Source: a virus
Reading direction: 5' to 3' (one strand)
Virus record (IMG/VR): IMGVR_UViG_3300037847_001213
Location: 1 to 21,249 of that record
DNA length: 21,249 nt
Shown: one piece after another, positions 1,588 to 19,128 of the stretch
Layout: the number at the start of each line of letters is the position of its first letter
Position numbering within the stretch: the first letter of the stretch is position 1
Notes under the pieces: model-generated
Database searches by the model: none
What the model was told of the DNA's origin: nothing
The model's input: the letters and a program-made list of their open reading frames with translations, nothing else
Program-made: the position numbers and the translations under genes

Positions 1588-1871
1588 TATCCTCTAGCCC
1601 TTTTTAATTGTTGTTTAGCTTGTTTAGCTAATCTAGCTTGTTCGTTTTTACCTTGTACTTTTGCTCTTTGTTCTAACACCGTTAATATCTGTATCTTTCT
1701 AGCATAAGGTTTTTTAATTCTTTTAACCTTTGCTATTGTTTTTTTTGCATCTGCTACAGTAGCATATTTAATACTTACTGTATCTTTAGGGTTCTCGTCA
1801 GTATATAATCTACGACCAGTACCTTTAGGTTTTTTTCCTGTTCCCTTTTTTGGGTCTTTTCTTTTTCTCAT
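1587..1871 (-). CDS. Small basic phage protein (GRRLYTDENPKDTVSIK family)
   Basis: This is a 94-aa very basic protein with the run KGTGRRLYTDENPKDTVSIK (residues about 16-35), followed by a helical Lys/Arg/Gln-rich C-terminus. I recognise this signature from small conserved marine phage proteins, but no function is known to me. DNA binding or a minor virion role is possible because of the charge, but that is inference. The ATG at 1871 lies inside the 3' end of the preceding gene (47-base overlap in another frame) and has no clear Shine-Dalgarno, so it may depend on ribosomes arriving from upstream. Its end encodes GAGGATAATG, which serves the next gene. Confidence 0.6.
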   Translation of the reverse strand: MRKRKDPKKGTGKKPKGTGRRLYTDENPKDTVSIKYATVADAKKTIAKVKRIKKPYARKIQILTVLEQRAKVQGKNEQARLAKQAKQQLKRARG

Positions 1872-2019
1872 TTTTTTTCACATAGTTTGCAACTATCTTC
1901 GCTTGATTTGCATGCAGCTTAGAAGCTTTTTTTAATTGTTTAGTTACTTTTTTTAATCTTCTTACCATATTATATTCTTGTTGTTGTTTTTTAAATACAA
2001 ATAATGTTTGATTATCCAT
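1825..2019 (-). CDS. Small lysine-rich protein, unknown function
   Basis: This is a 64-aa protein whose start is well supported by AGGAGGTGTGTTATGG. The sequence is helical and strongly basic (RRLKKVTKQLKKASKLHANQ, then KKNEKKKRPKKGNRKK at the C-terminus). I do not recognise a family. It is the first gene after the 69-base gap 2020-2088, and its 3' end overlaps the following gene by 47 bases. Basic charge suggests nucleic-acid binding, as for several neighbours, but this is inference. The poly-Lys tail comes from A-rich DNA, so composition alone could produce it. Confidence 0.5.
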   Translation of the reverse strand: MDNQTLFVFKKQQQEYNMVRRLKKVTKQLKKASKLHANQAKIVANYVKKNEKKKRPKKGNRKKT

Positions 2020-14370: not shown

Positions 14371-15909
14371 TTAGATTCTCCAGTAGGCAAGTTTTTTCTG
14401 TCGTCTTGGTTCTTCCCATTCAGGGTCTTCAGGATGTGATAAGTGCCAAGACTCCTTCATATAATGTATTGCCATAACCATAGCATCTACCTGGTCATCG
14501 TGAGCAGCATTTGGAAAACGCAATAATTCTTCTATAAATTCATCTGACCATTTTTTACCTGAGGGTATCCATACTCTTCCTGCTTCAAGCATAGGAGATG
14601 CAGAATATACTCTAGCTACTTTATCTCTATCAGGAGTATACTCTAAAACAGGTAAACCACTTCTACGTAAATCCTGAATCAACGATTGTCCAGAAGCTTT
14701 CTTTTCTATAATACAAACATCAGGTCTGTGTTGATAGTAAAGTGTCTGTGATAAACGTCGGAGCTCTGGATATTCAAACCGTCCTCTTATATTACCAAGT
14801 AATATTAAATTTGATTGATAGCTTTCATATCCGTAGTCATCTTGTTCGTAGTTTGAGAAGATACCCCATGTTTGAATCACACTATAGTCGGCAGTTGTTC
14901 TTGTAGAGAAAGCAGTATCGTACGTTTGAATAATAAAATCACAAGGTGGTGGTTCAGAATATTCCCACCATTGGAGCCAATTCTTTTTTATAAGCCCTCC
15001 TTCTTCAGGAGTTGGGTCTTGCATATATAGTGCATTCCAATATCGTGAACCATTGGATGCCTTAATTTCTTCTTCGTCTATTTTTAATAAATTGTTTGGT
15101 TTCCATTCAGGAAAGTAGGATGAACCAACAGGGAGTTTTAAAAGTTTGGCTGAGTCTTCGTCTAACCAAGCAGGAATACGGATAACCTCCCAAGGAAGAA
15201 TATCATACTCCGACATTTCTTCTTGTTGTTTTAGTAACCATCCACATAAATCGTCGTAATGGTACCTAGTATTAATAATTAGGATAGAACCATTAGGCAT
15301 TATACGTGTTCGTAGTCCTGCAGGGTACCAATCTTTTACATATTTACGTCCTGCTTCAGAATATGAGTCTTCTTCGGACATGACATCGTCTAGAATAGCT
15401 ATGTGAGCTCCACGACCTGCTATTTGACTTCTAACACCTGCAGCATAATACGTGCCACCTAGGTTGGTCTTCCATTTTCCTGCAGCTCTAACGTCAGACC
15501 TTAGTGTTACTCCTGGGAATATCTTTGTATATATCTCTGTAGATACTATATCTCTTACAGACCTACCAAAATCACTAGATAGTTGGTCACTATGGGATAC
15601 TGTTAGGATTTCATGCTCTGGATTCTTACCCATATACCAGGCAGGGAATAGTTTTGAGCATATTACAGACTTGGAAGAACGTGGTGGTAAAAAAACCATC
15701 AGACGTTTTATCTCTCCAGACTCTAATTGTTTTAATTTATTGGATATAACCTCTATATGTCTACCCATTTTCCAGTCAGATACTAGAGTGGGTGCCATTT
15801 TCCTGACGAAAGAAAGAAAATCTTCGTTGCAAATCTTTTTTGAAAGAGAAAATAAACGGTCTCTTAGTCCTAAATGGGCTTCAGTCTCGGCATTAAAGTT
15901 TTCTTCCAT
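14371..15909 (-). CDS. terL: Terminase large subunit (DNA-packaging ATPase/nuclease)
   Basis: This 512-aa motor pumps DNA into the prohead and cuts it. The ATPase domain shows a Walker A variant LPPRSSKS (74-81), Walker B AILDDVMSEE (171-180, acidic D174-D175) and a coupling motif NTRYH (213-217). The nuclease domain has the three acidic metal-binding positions in YDTAF (D331), IIEKKASG (E402) and HDDQVDAM (D471/D472). Full length and both domains are intact. No terminase small subunit gene is recognisable beside it. The ATG has no Shine-Dalgarno but lies about 10 bases after a perfect TATAAT, so its transcript may be nearly leaderless. Confidence 0.93.
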   Translation of the reverse strand: MEENFNAETEAHLGLRDRLFSLSKKICNEDFLSFVRKMAPTLVSDWKMGRHIEVISNKLKQLESGEIKRLMVFLPPRSSKSVICSKLFPAWYMGKNPEHEILTVSHSDQLSSDFGRSVRDIVSTEIYTKIFPGVTLRSDVRAAGKWKTNLGGTYYAAGVRSQIAGRGAHIAILDDVMSEEDSYSEAGRKYVKDWYPAGLRTRIMPNGSILIINTRYHYDDLCGWLLKQQEEMSEYDILPWEVIRIPAWLDEDSAKLLKLPVGSSYFPEWKPNNLLKIDEEEIKASNGSRYWNALYMQDPTPEEGGLIKKNWLQWWEYSEPPPCDFIIQTYDTAFSTRTTADYSVIQTWGIFSNYEQDDYGYESYQSNLILLGNIRGRFEYPELRRLSQTLYYQHRPDVCIIEKKASGQSLIQDLRRSGLPVLEYTPDRDKVARVYSASPMLEAGRVWIPSGKKWSDEFIEELLRFPNAAHDDQVDAMVMAIHYMKESWHLSHPEDPEWEEPRRQKKLAYWRI

Positions 15910-15918
15910 ACTATTTAG

Positions 15919-15947
15919 ATTATATAGAACTATTTATAGTTATACAA
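15919..15947 (-). promoter_or_regulatory. Probable leftward promoter of terL
   Basis: On the minus strand TTGTAT (15947-15942) is followed at 17 bases by a perfect TATAAT (15924-15919). Transcription would start near 15912, about 3-5 bases before the ATG at 15909. This agrees with the lack of a ribosome binding site. The surrounding DNA is very AT-rich, which lowers the weight of the match. Confidence 0.5.
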
Positions 15948-15983
15948 GTATTATTTTAAGTATTAATAACTAAATAATTAATC

Positions 15984-16024
15984 TAAGATAGTCTTAACTA
16001 TTATATAGTCTTAGATATCTAAGA
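15984..16024. promoter_or_regulatory. Paired dyads with CTTAGA/TCTAAG half-sites (possible operators)
   Basis: TCTTAGATATCTAAGA (16009-16024) is a perfect 16-bp palindrome. TAAGATAGTCTTA (15984-15996) is a second dyad with related half-sites, about 26 bases between centres. Both lie 40-80 bases upstream of the terL promoter in the divergent region. They could bind a dimeric regulator controlling the switch between late and early genes. No regulator gene is seen in the window. Confidence 0.4.
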
Positions 16025-16235
16025 ATATTTTTTGATATATCTATACTATATATTACTCCCCACTAAAAAGCAAGAACTTTTTTTTAAAAAAGAGTTAGTT
16101 ATATAGAAAAGACCAGGTAAAAGTTTTATCTAGACTGGCAAAATGATGAAAGTGCCGAGTTATTTCGTAAATATGTCACACCTATGTCTTATATATATAG
16201 CAGGGCTATACAGATTTTTGACGTACCCCCTACAC

Positions 16236-16302
16236 ACGTACAAGACGTATGAGGTCTCCTACGCAAACAGATACCTTACGAGACCTTATACGTCTTATAC
16301 GT
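16236..16302 (+). repeat. Long imperfect inverted repeat (23-position arms)
   Basis: The left arm 16236-16258 and the right arm 16280-16302 pair at 21 Watson-Crick positions plus one G-U, with a single C/A mismatch. The uninterrupted inner part is 17 pairs. The loop is 21 bases. Both arms contain ACGTA-type steps and the GGTCTC/GAGACC block. Confidence 0.85.
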
Positions 16303-16528
16303 ACGAGAAATGGAGACTCAGCAGTTCTCAGTCGTCTCATACGTGTCTGTAATGCATCATCTACGTGTAAGAAAATTATCTCGTATATACGTCCAAGACC
16401 TTGAAAAACCTAGTATATACACACGAAAACCCCTCACGTACTTACGGTCAATCAAAACCTTGGAAGTCATCAGAAAACCCCATCGTATGTACAATGTCGT
16501 CACGTATGTCGTCATAGGAGATTCTCTG

Positions 16529-16554
16529 AAACCCTCAGAAATCTGGGGTTTTTT
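16529..16554 (+). terminator. Rho-independent terminator (rightward)
   Basis: AAACCC pairs with GGGTTT, with an inner CAG/CTG pair set and an AAAT loop, and a run of six T includes the end of the stem (16549-16554). It lies just upstream of the early promoter, so it would end transcripts coming from the ACGT-rich region and isolate the early genes from read-through. Confidence 0.7.
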
Positions 16555-16561
16555 AGGGGGG

Positions 16562-16590
16562 TTGACAACCCTTTGAGGATTTGGTATTCT
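16562..16590 (+). promoter_or_regulatory. Early rightward promoter, TTGACA-17-TATTCT, with a dyad over the -35
   Basis: TTGACA (16562-16567) is a perfect -35 and TATTCT (16585-16590) a 4/6 -10 at 17-bp spacing. The start would fall near 16597, leaving a leader of about 107 bases before the ATG at 16704. The dyad GGGTTGACAACCC (16559-16571) is centred on the -35 box, a position where a bound dimer would block polymerase. Confidence 0.65.
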
Positions 16591-16623
16591 AGAGTTAGCT
16601 TTTTTCGAAGTGTTATCATAGCA

Positions 16624-16690
16624 TACACACGAAGAAAGTCGATGTTTGTTATGTACACACGAAGAGAGTTTTATTAACGTCATACACACA
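16624..16690 (+). repeat. Spaced TACACACGAAGA repeats in the early leader
   Basis: TACACACGAAGAAAGT (16624-16639) and TACACACGAAGAGAGT (16654-16669) differ at one position and are 30 bases apart. A third, shorter match TACACACA starts at 16683, just before the AGGAGG of the first early gene. Related TACACACGAAAA (16418-16429) occurs upstream of the promoter. They lie in the leader RNA and could be protein- or RNA-binding sites. Confidence 0.6.
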
Positions 16691-16703
16691 TTAGGAGGTT
16701 ATT

Positions 16704-17114
16704 ATGACAAAACTTACACGTACATTCATCAAACCTGCATTTTCTCTTACGTTATTCGGAAGAGAGATTGCACTCGTATCACTAGACCCACGTAAGAAGT
16801 GGACGTATACCGATGCCAAGGGTTATCTCTTGCAGACACGTACACGTCACTCTGGTGTCTGGGCTTCTCAGCACTCGTACAAGATGGCACTCAAGAATGG
16901 TGGCTCTCGTACGGTCGGAGGTGTGAAGCTAGACTCCAAAGGTCGTGGGGTCAAGGTTCTTGCGTCTAGCACACACTTTGCTGACAAACACAAGAGCTAC
17001 TACGTGTACGGATTTGTGCCGTTCCTCAAGAGGGTTTTCGGTTCATTTGGTTTACACAAACGTGGATACAATCCGTTCCACTCGTTGAAGAGAACGGACT
17101 TCGACAAAGCTTAG
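16704..17114 (+). CDS. Small basic early protein, unknown function
   Basis: This is a 136-aa basic protein, the first gene after the early promoter. AGGAGG (16693-16698) is 5 bases before the ATG. The sequence includes an N-terminal part with FIKPAFSLTLFGREIALVSL, a middle with TRTRHSGVWASQHSYKMAL and an aromatic stretch KSYYVYGFVPFLKRVFGSFG. There is no clear membrane segment or known motif. Position first in the early operon is typical of host-takeover proteins, but that is inference from place only. Its codons are richer in CGT and ACG than those of the late genes. Confidence 0.65.
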   Translation: MTKLTRTFIKPAFSLTLFGREIALVSLDPRKKWTYTDAKGYLLQTRTRHSGVWASQHSYKMALKNGGSRTVGGVKLDSKGRGVKVLASSTHFADKHKSYYVYGFVPFLKRVFGSFGLHKRGYNPFHSLKRTDFDKA

Positions 17115-17221
17115 ATGCACTAGCACGTGGGGGACTCTACATCCCTCACGAGTGCTTCTGTAAGTCCTATGCGTAGGATTTTCAGAAGCATTTCGCTTCA
17201 TTCCATAACACACACAAGGAG
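17115..17221 (+). promoter_or_regulatory. Structured intergenic RNA with consecutive hairpins
   Basis: Three stems follow one another. GCACT (17117-17121) pairs with AGTGC (17151-17155), and inside it CGTGGGGGA (17126-17134) pairs with TCCCTCACG with one G-U. The arms 17154-17169 and 17174-17189 form a 16-position stem closed by a TGCG loop. GAAGC (17185-17189) can instead pair with GCTTC (17195-17199). The second and third stems share bases and exclude each other, as in attenuators. No T tract follows, so an RNA-stability or translation-control role is more likely than termination. The ribosome binding site of the next gene lies just after. Confidence 0.55.
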
Positions 17222-17227
17222 GTAACA

Positions 17228-17443
17228 ATGGAATTTTACATCGTAGAAAATACGTACGGATGGAATCTTGAGACTCTAGACGTAGACGATTACATAGCAC
17301 TTGCCGAAGGTAGGCACAGCTACATCCAATCGTGGTCGGTCGGTGGTGAGTTGCTGTTCAAGACGTTCACGAACTACGACGAAGCCGTCAAGTATCGTGA
17401 CGAGAAGGAAGCCGAAGAGGAGTTCGAGAAAACCTATGGTTAA
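17228..17443 (+). CDS. Small acidic early protein, unknown function
   Basis: This is a 71-aa acidic protein (MEFYIVENTYGWNLETLDVD onward) ending in the charged helix KYRDEKEAEEEFEKTYG. AAGGAGGT precedes the ATG in a leader that resembles that of gene 16704 (CACACA...AGGAGGT..). It overlaps the next gene by 8 bases. It has no recognised family. Confidence 0.6.
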   Translation: MEFYIVENTYGWNLETLDVDDYIALAEGRHSYIQSWSVGGELLFKTFTNYDEAVKYRDEKEAEEEFEKTYG

Positions 17444-18134
17444 GCTTACTCTTCGTATGTGCAAGGACATAAATATGTGGGCATTAGACCGTCCAATTGA
17501 CGATATCCCAGATGCCCACGTGAAAGGTTCTTGCATTCACAAAACTTCGTTTTGTAAGCAAACGTGCTACAACGTGAAGTTATATCGTATGTTTCCGAAT
17601 ATGCGTAAGAAGGATATCGAAAACGAGCAATTCTGGCAGTCTCTCCCTTGGACACACGTGGATTGGGACAACGAAGCTCTGGCATTGCTCAAGGGTAAAA
17701 TCGACCGTATGCGTAAGAGACCAAAACGTATTCGACTGATGACACGTGGAGAAGCATTCAGCTCCATTGCTGATGTGTTTCGTGTGAAGGTACTATGCGA
17801 AGCATTCCCAGACATCGTGTTCTGGTGTCCTACTCGTGCTTGGAGACAAGGTCAGCTTCGAGGGGTCATACGTGACCACTTGTTCGAGGTGAAAAACTTA
17901 AACCTCAACGCATCACTCGACCCTACGACCACACGTGAGGAAAAGCAATCGTTGTTTGCCGAAGGGTGGTCGACGATGTTCTACGGAGACGATAGGATGG
18001 AAGCCCAAGCAGGTAGGTTTCTATGTCCGAAGACACACAAGAAGCTGAAGAAAATCTGCACGTTATGTAACCGAGGATGTTTCCGAGGGACTGCACAAGG
18101 TGTGCCATCCCACGTACATCTCTCACAACACTAG
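17436..18134 (+). CDS. Cysteine-rich GP88-like phage protein
   Basis: From ATG 17436 the protein has 232 aa; the frame is open further upstream, but only across the previous gene. It has a cysteine cluster CIHKTSFCKQTC (33-44; CX6CX3C), a central RIRLMTRGEAFSS (98-110) and VFWCPTRAWRQG (128-139). A second cluster, CPKTHKKLKKICTLCNRGC (197-215), contains CX2CX3C. The order, with early cysteines, R..GE and W.PTR, resembles phage GP88-type proteins, whose function is unknown to me. The cysteines suggest a zinc or iron-sulphur site. GAGGAG lies about 14 bases upstream of the ATG, so translation may depend on coupling to the preceding gene. Confidence 0.6.
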   Translation: MVKLTLRMCKDINMWALDRPIDDIPDAHVKGSCIHKTSFCKQTCYNVKLYRMFPNMRKKDIENEQFWQSLPWTHVDWDNEALALLKGKIDRMRKRPKRIRLMTRGEAFSSIADVFRVKVLCEAFPDIVFWCPTRAWRQGQLRGVIRDHLFEVKNLNLNASLDPTTTREEKQSLFAEGWSTMFYGDDRMEAQAGRFLCPKTHKKLKKICTLCNRGCFRGTAQGVPSHVHLSQH

Positions 18135-18149
18135 GAGGAGGTGAGCAGT

Positions 18150-18359
18150 ATGAAATGTTGTATATGCACACAAGAAATTGAGGTCGTACGTAATGACGAA
18201 GGTGACGTAATTTGGGACAGAGGAAACGATGCTATGCCGTTCAAGGATGGCAGGTGTTGTAACCGTTGTGACCAAGCCGTAGTGATGCCAATGCGTATGG
18301 GTAGGCAAGAGGAAGCAATGTTTAACGCATTCGTAATACGAGAGGAGGTGGGGGTATGA
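18150..18359 (+). CDS. Small zinc-type protein (CxxC...CCxxC)
   Basis: This is 69 aa from ATG 18150 (MKCCICTQEIEVV). A GTG at 18141 is in frame, but AGGAGG at a suitable distance before the ATG decides the start. CCIC (3-6) and GRCCNRC (about 34-40) form a four-cysteine knuckle pair of the kind found in a widespread small phage protein (..GRCC..C...V...R). Function is unknown; nucleic-acid binding is inferred from the zinc motif. Its stop overlaps the next ATG as ATGA. Confidence 0.65.
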   Translation: MKCCICTQEIEVVRNDEGDVIWDRGNDAMPFKDGRCCNRCDQAVVMPMRMGRQEEAMFNAFVIREEVGV

Positions 18360-18574
18360 AAACCAACACAGACATAGCAATGCTACTAACCGATGCAATC
18401 TTGAACGAGTTCGAACGTCTAGGGGTATGCAAAATACCCTTGGACGAGCATAAGTACTCGTTTGAGTTGCAGGACTTAATCACCGATACTCTTACGAGTA
18501 TTGCAAATCAGAGCAATGTGGACGATAATACCGTAGGGGTAGGTGAATTACCTACAGAAAGTGAGGAAAAATGA
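18356..18574 (+). CDS. Small acidic early protein, unknown function
   Basis: This is a 72-aa protein (MKTNTDIAMLLTDAILNEFE onward) with a helical first half and a polar, acidic tail (GELPTESEEK). It is coupled by ATGA overlaps to both neighbours, and GAGGAGGTGGGGGT precedes its ATG. No family is recognised. Confidence 0.55.
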   Translation: MKTNTDIAMLLTDAILNEFERLGVCKIPLDEHKYSFELQDLITDTLTSIANQSNVDDNTVGVGELPTESEEK

Positions 18575-18798
18575 AGAAAATTATACACGTAAATCAGCAC
18601 GTTATACGTGCAAACGGCAAGAGTGGGGACAGAAATCCCCCTCTTACGTGCAAGACGTACAAGCACAATGCATACTTCCACGAGATTGAGGTCAAGGGAG
18701 GATGCAAGATTGTGTACAGTCCAGACAAACCCTTATCGTGTGGTGCAAAGGTCTGGATTGAGACGAATGGTGAAGTCGTAGGTGTCTTACGAAAGTAG
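18571..18798 (+). CDS. Conserved small phage protein (IIHVNQHVIRAN...PLSCGAKVWIET)
   Basis: This is a 75-aa protein starting MKKIIHVNQHVIRANGKSGD and containing VYSPDKPLSCGAKVWIETNG near the C-terminus. I recognise this pattern from many phage genomes where it is a short hypothetical protein of the early region; no activity is known to me. The ATG overlaps the previous stop as ATGA. It is the last gene of the GC-richer early block. Confidence 0.65.
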   Translation: MKKIIHVNQHVIRANGKSGDRNPPLTCKTYKHNAYFHEIEVKGGCKIVYSPDKPLSCGAKVWIETNGEVVGVLRK

Positions 18799-18801
18799 GA
18801 C

Positions 18802-18837
18802 ACTTGCACTCGTGTTTATGCAAGTAAATTTTTTTTT
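18802..18837 (+). terminator. Hairpin with T9 tract after early module 1 (possible terminator)
   Basis: ACTTGCA (18802-18808) pairs with TGCAAGT (18819-18825), followed by AAA and nine T (18829-18837), 4 bases after the stop of the last gene. The T tract can also serve as the far arm of another hairpin, TGCAAGTAAA (18819-18828) with TTTATTTGCA (18835-18844), so the two folds compete. It could be a terminator or a switch between stop and read-through. Confidence 0.5.
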
Positions 18838-18848
18838 ATTTGCACAAG

Positions 18849-19092
18849 CACGATTGGTGCTTTGGCAACATGGAGAGTTGTCGCATGTGGGTCTACTGAG
18901 GTGAAGTAAGTGTGTGGACGCAACACTTAGTTATCGGAGTGATATCCCTTCAAGCAGGTAGGCATGGCACGTTTCTAGGGTAATACAAGACAATCTCAAG
19001 AGTTATAGCTTGAGTGCCTAGAGGGGGAACTGTAACTCCCTCAAGATTGGTTCGACTCCTTTACTCTCCACCTAATTCCTTACGTGTGTGTG
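18849..19092 (+). ncRNA. Candidate structured RNA with tRNA-Tyr-like 5' and 3' pieces
   Basis: No gene fits this stretch. The 5' part reads GGAGAGT, then TG and a possible D-arm TCG...TGA (18881-18899). The 3' part has CTGTAAC (19030-19036; an anticodon-loop form with GTA), TTCGACT (19051-19057; a T-loop form), ACTCTCC (19063-19069) pairing with GGAGAGT (18872-18878), and A-CC after it. Between the pieces lie about 120 bases with a 7-bp hairpin (18907-18929). The set AATCT/AGATT plus two inner hairpins (18991-19049) would compete with the T-arm. The T-stem has two mismatches, so it is not a normal tRNA. AAGCAC/GTGCTT (18847-18863) is another stem. Confidence 0.4.
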
Positions 19093-19098
19093 GGATAG

Positions 19099-19128
19099 CA
19101 CGAGGATGAAATTTTTTTTGTCCTCGTG
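19099..19128 (+). terminator. 8-bp perfect hairpin with T8 in the loop
   Basis: CACGAGGA (19099-19106) pairs perfectly with TCCTCGTG (19121-19128). The 14-base loop contains eight T. Because the T tract is in the loop and not behind the stem, this is not a standard terminator; it may be an RNA-end or protein-binding hairpin closing the structured block ahead of the second early operon. Confidence 0.4.

Follow-up and report, generated by a model that had tools for sequence, protein, structure and literature searches.

A conserved, spaced DNA element beside the terminase gene of uncultured marine phages and a hairpin that elaborates it in one lineage

The non-coding block upstream of the terminase gene terL in an uncultured virus genome appears, from comparison with its relatives, to carry a DNA signal that is common to dozens of uncultured ocean phages and adjoins their DNA-packaging gene, while a striking hairpin is its local embellishment. 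The sequence analysed, called the window here, is a stretch of 21,249 nt that lies within a 26,003-base virus record, and its features are collected in Table 1. The element would be one precise short DNA target, with an octamer, a T-run, and a TA tract at fixed distances, which explains the location of the hairpin. We tentatively take the block, at somewhat less than even confidence, to be part of a cis-acting DNA element that lies between terL and the early genes transcribed in the opposite direction and that would act as the origin of replication and as a control region, and we place this reading first and a packaging (pac) site second. The phages are an uncultured group of marine tailed phages present in many ocean samples, and with a best deposited match of about 39% terminase identity, the start of replication, packaging, and transcription is undescribed for the group. 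Among the matches listed, that terminase is from HTVC023P, and the portal protein is about 42% identical to those of 023Pt_psg01 and DSL-LC04. No DNA similarity to deposited phages was found, and a terminase search of bacterial genomes returned no relative and thus no prophage or host clue.

Table 1. Features of the non-coding region and its flanking genes in the window
Feature	Position	Strand	Basis
terL, terminase large subunit, 512 aa, directed away from the element	14371-15909	-	phrog_38, E = 1.5e-112; Terminase_6C, E = 3e-16
Non-coding region between divergent transcription units	15910-16703	.	ORF list; position equivalent to relatives' non-coding regions upstream of terL
Left-hand conserved block, TATTTCGTAAATATGTCACACC..., some 20 bp ahead of the TA tract; weak resemblance to a promoter	16161-16189	+	Alignment of 23 relatives
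TATATATATA tract, beginning 80 nt before GATACCTT	16190-16199	.	Start position in 49 relatives
T-run (TTTTT) then GACGTACCCCC, the T-run/GC-rich block	16215-16230	.	T-run end in 51 relatives
TACGT/ACGTA words, repeated	16221-16507	.	At 16221, 16236, 16245, 16289, 16298, 16299, 16340, 16362, 16388, 16436, 16502
Left arm of 23-position dyad	16236-16258	+	Pairing inspected, fold computed
GATACCTTA, conserved octamer followed by A, within the hairpin loop	16270-16278	+	61 of 71 relatives; 76 distinct examples
Right arm of dyad	16280-16302	+	Pairing, fold; double changes in L001/L003/L089
Rho-independent terminator	16531-16554	+	Window and L001/L002; no conservation across the group at large
Sigma70-like promoter, TTGACA-17-TATTCT, TG before -10, toward early genes	16562-16590	+	Consensus match; same hexamers in L001
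Two 16-bp direct repeats, TACACACGAAGAnAGT, 30 bp apart, operator-like	16624-16669	+	Between the promoter at 16562-16590 and the first gene
First rightward gene, 136 aa	16704-17114	+	ORF list; PHROG search without a family match

The hairpin pairs as the first-pass annotation had described it, with 21 Watson-Crick pairs, one G-U (16251/16287), and one mismatch (C-A, 16241/16297). The 81-nt hairpin stretch folds at -31.7 kcal/mol versus -11.2 +/- 2.3 kcal/mol in dinucleotide-shuffled sequences (z = -8.8), of which 0 of 200 fold as well, and the hairpin is far beyond chance. Its loop (16259-16279) holds a sequence that is common to dozens of other phages and was absent from that annotation, and the octamer GATACCTT itself occupies 16270-16277. 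The direct repeats and palindromes reported for the block are also present, with repeated 7-mers above shuffles (z = 8.6), and the density of ACGT across 16221-16507 is 21.9 per kb versus 2.6 in late genes. ORFs of 51-110 aa overlap the block, and their coding potential was judged by inspection.

A hairpin pattern search of IMG/VR gave matches only in the two close relatives, one contig (L001/L002/L083) that is 96.6% identical to the window across the non-coding region and another (L003/L084) that is 92.7% identical over the portion covered. The hairpin is retained in both, and one of its pairs is altered on both sides (16250 T to C and 16288 A to G, turning T-A into C-G); L001 gains one pair and loses one. 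In the homologue L089, whose TerL is 80% identical, roughly two thirds of the pairs survive along with the loop sequence ACAGATACCTTACG, and several pairs are changed on both sides. Computed on a sequence-only alignment of four sequences from the window's sublineage, the covariation score of the dyad is 0.225, with four pairs changed on both sides, versus 0.092 +/- 0.033 after shuffling (2 of 500 reach 0.225) and at most 0.094 in slid controls. Paired changes of the kind by which the hairpin was to be checked are there at four pairs, and the dyad is therefore probably under selection, although both statements draw on about two independent lineages only. Between the window and L001, about 250 bp are identical at 16337-16590, many differences fall in the hairpin part (16190-16335), and substitutions are concentrated in the element. 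A second strong hairpin, with a 20-bp stem, one mismatch, and a TGCG loop, lies between the first two early genes (17150-17193).

Relatives with terminases 76-84% identical to that of the window were fetched from IMG/VR with TerL as the anchor, and in all of them the place of the window's block is taken by a non-coding region upstream of terL. The alignment of these regions shows TATATATATA at about -80, a T-run with a GC-rich block at about -50, and GATACCTT(A/G) at 0. Counted over the 71 relatives in which 420 nt or more precede terL, the octamer is present in 61 (shuffles expect 0.60) and the spaced pair TATATA-N64-84-GATACCTT in 55 (shuffles expect 0.00). Relative to the octamer, the start of the TA tract lies between -85 and -78 in 49 relatives. 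In each of the 51 relatives in which a T-run was found, the longest one stops between -52 and -48, beside the GC-rich block. The core motif derived from 76 distinct examples is AAnAGATACCTT(A/G), and no conservation is seen in the stretches that separate the blocks. The dyads or short repeats that surround the octamer are particular to each lineage, the 23-bp dyad of the window being the most extreme. Inverted arms on either side of the octamer occur more often than expected (mean z 0.91 versus 0.29 at a control point, with 21% above 2); they are unrelated in sequence in L099, L017, L146, and others, and those of the window are the longest. The octamer is missing in about 15% of relatives, of which L247, L256, L319, and L326 still keep the TA tract and the T-run, and it is inverted in L244. 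Although the element was defined and tested on overlapping data, the shuffle expectation of 0 of 71 leaves little doubt that it is real.

The element is absent from the six related deposited phages tested (HTVC023P, HTVC027P, 023Pt_psg01, DSL-LC04, MinM2, and CRP-810), and literature searches found no description of it. As a genome-wide regulatory site, GATACCTT was rejected, showing no clear enrichment over a reversed-pattern control. Upstream of terL in L018, GC-rich tandem repeats (CTAGGCCTAC.AGGCTCAGG) replace the usual AT-rich region.

Strong hairpins between phage genes do not necessarily signify an RNA, and the comparison of the relatives points to DNA here. The first-pass annotation had interpreted the block as a structured phage RNA of 300-450 nt. 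Such an RNA could be a transcript from about 16205 to 16554 with a functional hairpin, serving as a leader, antitermination, or small RNA (nut/put-like). The z score of the hairpin, the terminator followed by a separate promoter, the dyad pairs altered on both sides, and the weakly promoter-like blocks at the TA tract are consistent with such an RNA, and the position-conserved dyads before and after the octamer recall a boxA/boxB layout. However, RNAalifold found no pairs and no common structure on 68 aligned elements, and the folding excess is strand-symmetric. For the 360-nt block, the fold is stronger than in shuffles whichever strand is taken (z = -3.7 plus, -4.3 minus), so its fold signal is not strand-specific. 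In sliding windows across the relatives, folding is stronger than in shuffles immediately beyond the octamer (z about -0.9) and between -60 and -15 (about -0.5), to the same degree on either strand, and the flanking controls toward terL show no excess. An RNA stem should tolerate G-U, but the stems show no excess of it, with G-U/A-C counts of 16/21 after the octamer, 17/11 before it, and 18/18 further on. The terminator is missing in many lineages, the inverted octamer of L244 also argues against an RNA, and TATATATA is a poor sigma70 -10, the -35-like TTCGTA of the window lying 20 bp away. The proposed Rfam check matched no family in the block at the gathering score and gave nothing credible at E <= 1.

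The element resembles the lambda nut and HK022 put antitermination RNAs in its short conserved sequence, its variable hairpins, and its location near the presumed start of an early transcript, but it differs from them in having no conserved fold, no strand bias of pairing, and weak promoter evidence. Its hairpins flank the octamer with neither a G-U bias nor a common fold, and the octamer is, in our judgement, unlike boxA. In sum, the non-chance hairpin of the first-pass annotation stands, while its RNA is not supported as the conserved object; we regard a functional transcript as improbable, and the DNA role that the annotation named as an alternative (origin or packaging site) fits better. 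The block may be transcribed. In our reading, the dyads are palindromes in the DNA or sites for proteins, and a role in replication, packaging, or control is more likely for the element than one as an independent RNA.

The terminator, claimed at 16529-16554, is borne out with slightly different limits (Table 1), its sequence being ACCC-T-CAG AAAT CTGGGGT followed by TTTTTT. A conserved early terminator was rejected, as many lineages have none. Immediately behind it lies the promoter-like site at 16562-16590, unlisted in the annotation, with 10 of 12 consensus matches; all promoter statements here are consensus matches. The region could be only a divergent promoter/operator region, with the blocks serving as regulator and RNA polymerase sites and having no role as an origin or in packaging. 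A leftward consensus promoter (TTGACA-17-TATAAT) between the element and terL in relatives such as L008, and the promoter-like site with 16-bp direct repeats before the first early gene of the window, would suit this arrangement, but the element lies at least 100 bp from those promoters in the window, and its fixed 80-nt layout is more elaborate than an operator needs. We consider this explanation distinctly improbable, below the RNA in rank. A promoter for a phage-type RNA polymerase was also considered; a search for the enzyme (PF00940) gave no match in seven genomes and none in controls, and hence does not show its absence.

The adjacency to terL suggests a pac site, at which the terminase would recognise the octamer and the surrounding dyads and headful packaging would start beside terL. 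In the element-bearing genomes where terS (PF03592) was found, it lies on the other strand more than 20 kb from terL, whereas in four sister genomes without the element (G011, G012, G017, and G018) it is directly before terL, so that the non-coding element occupies the place of terS. A terS far from terL and on the other strand is seen in G001, G013, G014, G015, G019, and G020-G027. In G001, terS sits where transcription units converge, and no terS was found in the 26-kb record of the window. The coupling of element and terS is not strict, because five other long genomes with a remote terS have no intact element. Pac sites of known headful phages are commonly in or near terS, but in the element-bearing genomes where terS was found, the element is far from it. 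Contig ends are in slight excess at +2 to +23 from the octamer, with six of them in this interval and the contig-end hazard at its highest, but contig ends also arise where strains diverge, and these statistics, drawn from IMG/VR assemblies, are confounded by strain variation. In addition, for 67 of 88 distinct elements the contig extends 700 nt or more past the octamer, so that in most virions a fixed end (cos) is excluded, but a pac cut is not. Compared to the pac sites of P22 and SPP1, the element likewise lies beside a terminase gene and the contigs of the group look circularly permuted, but it is not in terS and is known from contigs rather than read ends. Taken together, a pac site is an unlikely reading, though the most probable after the origin.

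A cos site was rejected, as most element contigs run straight through and the ends show no single-base pile-up, which makes a fixed virion end in the element unlikely. The short blocks at fixed spacing upstream of terL and the variable GC-rich block do resemble the cos sites of lambda and HK97-like phages.

For the origin and control region that we place first, the evidence is an AT-rich tract with repeats and dyads in a non-coding region, dyads enriched beside and around the octamer, and lineage-specific repeated words. In a 56-kb relative, the region is at the cumulative GC-skew minimum and the divergence of gene orientation, and in the window it is at a GC-skew turn; GC skew alone is no proof of an origin, since it coincides with gene orientation. 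A T7-type DNA polymerase and a primase/helicase are encoded by the relative G001, and a primase/helicase by G000. In this scheme, a protein of the phage (or the host) would bind both the octamer and the dyads or repeats particular to the lineage, the TA tract would melt, and a replisome of the phage's own, with T7-type polymerase and primase-helicase as seen in relatives, would be loaded, with divergent transcription departing from both sides of the element. In that case, the hairpin would serve as a palindrome bound by protein, or form a cruciform, and would not be an RNA stem. Against the origin, no initiator protein was recognised among the proteins scanned, and about 15% of relatives are without the octamer, some keeping only the TA tract and T-run. 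Nor is the origin the sole fit, as adjacency to terL and coupling to the position of terS suit a packaging site equally.

Iteron/dyad origins of phages and plasmids, such as lambda ori, share with the element an AT-rich tract, lineage-specific repeats or dyads, a non-coding location, divergence of transcription, and a GC-skew turn, the last of these coinciding here with gene orientation, but no initiator gene was recognised for the element. To our knowledge, no known origin has an invariant octamer set at a constant 80 nt from a TA tract. Rolling-circle stem-loop origins with a loop nonamer are alike in their conserved loop motif, lineage-varying stem, and lineage-specific flanking repeats. 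In contrast to them, arms flank the motif in only about 20% of lineages here, no rolling-circle nuclease is among the proteins scanned, and the genome is that of a tailed phage of about 56 kb with its own T7-type replisome. It is conceivable, though very improbable, that the element represents an undescribed type of tailed-phage initiation site, with GATACCTT in a loop between lineage-varying inverted arms at a fixed 80 nt from TATATATATA, whose arms co-evolve with a lineage-specific protein and which replaced terS when terS left terL.

Several other features of the window were observed. An island at 16201-19100 has a CpG observed/expected ratio of 1.0-1.2 versus 0.38-0.58 on both sides, a GC content of 0.41-0.46 versus 0.32-0.33 on either side, and ACGT at 5 to 8 times the late-gene frequency; from its composition, it looks like an acquired module. 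A GP88-family protein (PF17338, E = 8e-13) is encoded at 17436-18134 and also in the early region of G001. GATC is absent from the window (68 expected) and from the remaining 4.75 kb of the record, L162 (12 expected). It is also absent in about 30 of 166 loci of the phage group, the others being near expectation (median 1.04), and L003/L084, with a 96% identical TerL, has near-normal GATC numbers. Judged from these counts, this looks like complete and recent GATC avoidance in some sublineages. Among the late genes, a glutamine riboswitch (RF01739; 2042-2089, minus strand; 44.4 bits, E = 6e-7) lies directly upstream of a 64-aa ORF (1825-2019, minus strand).
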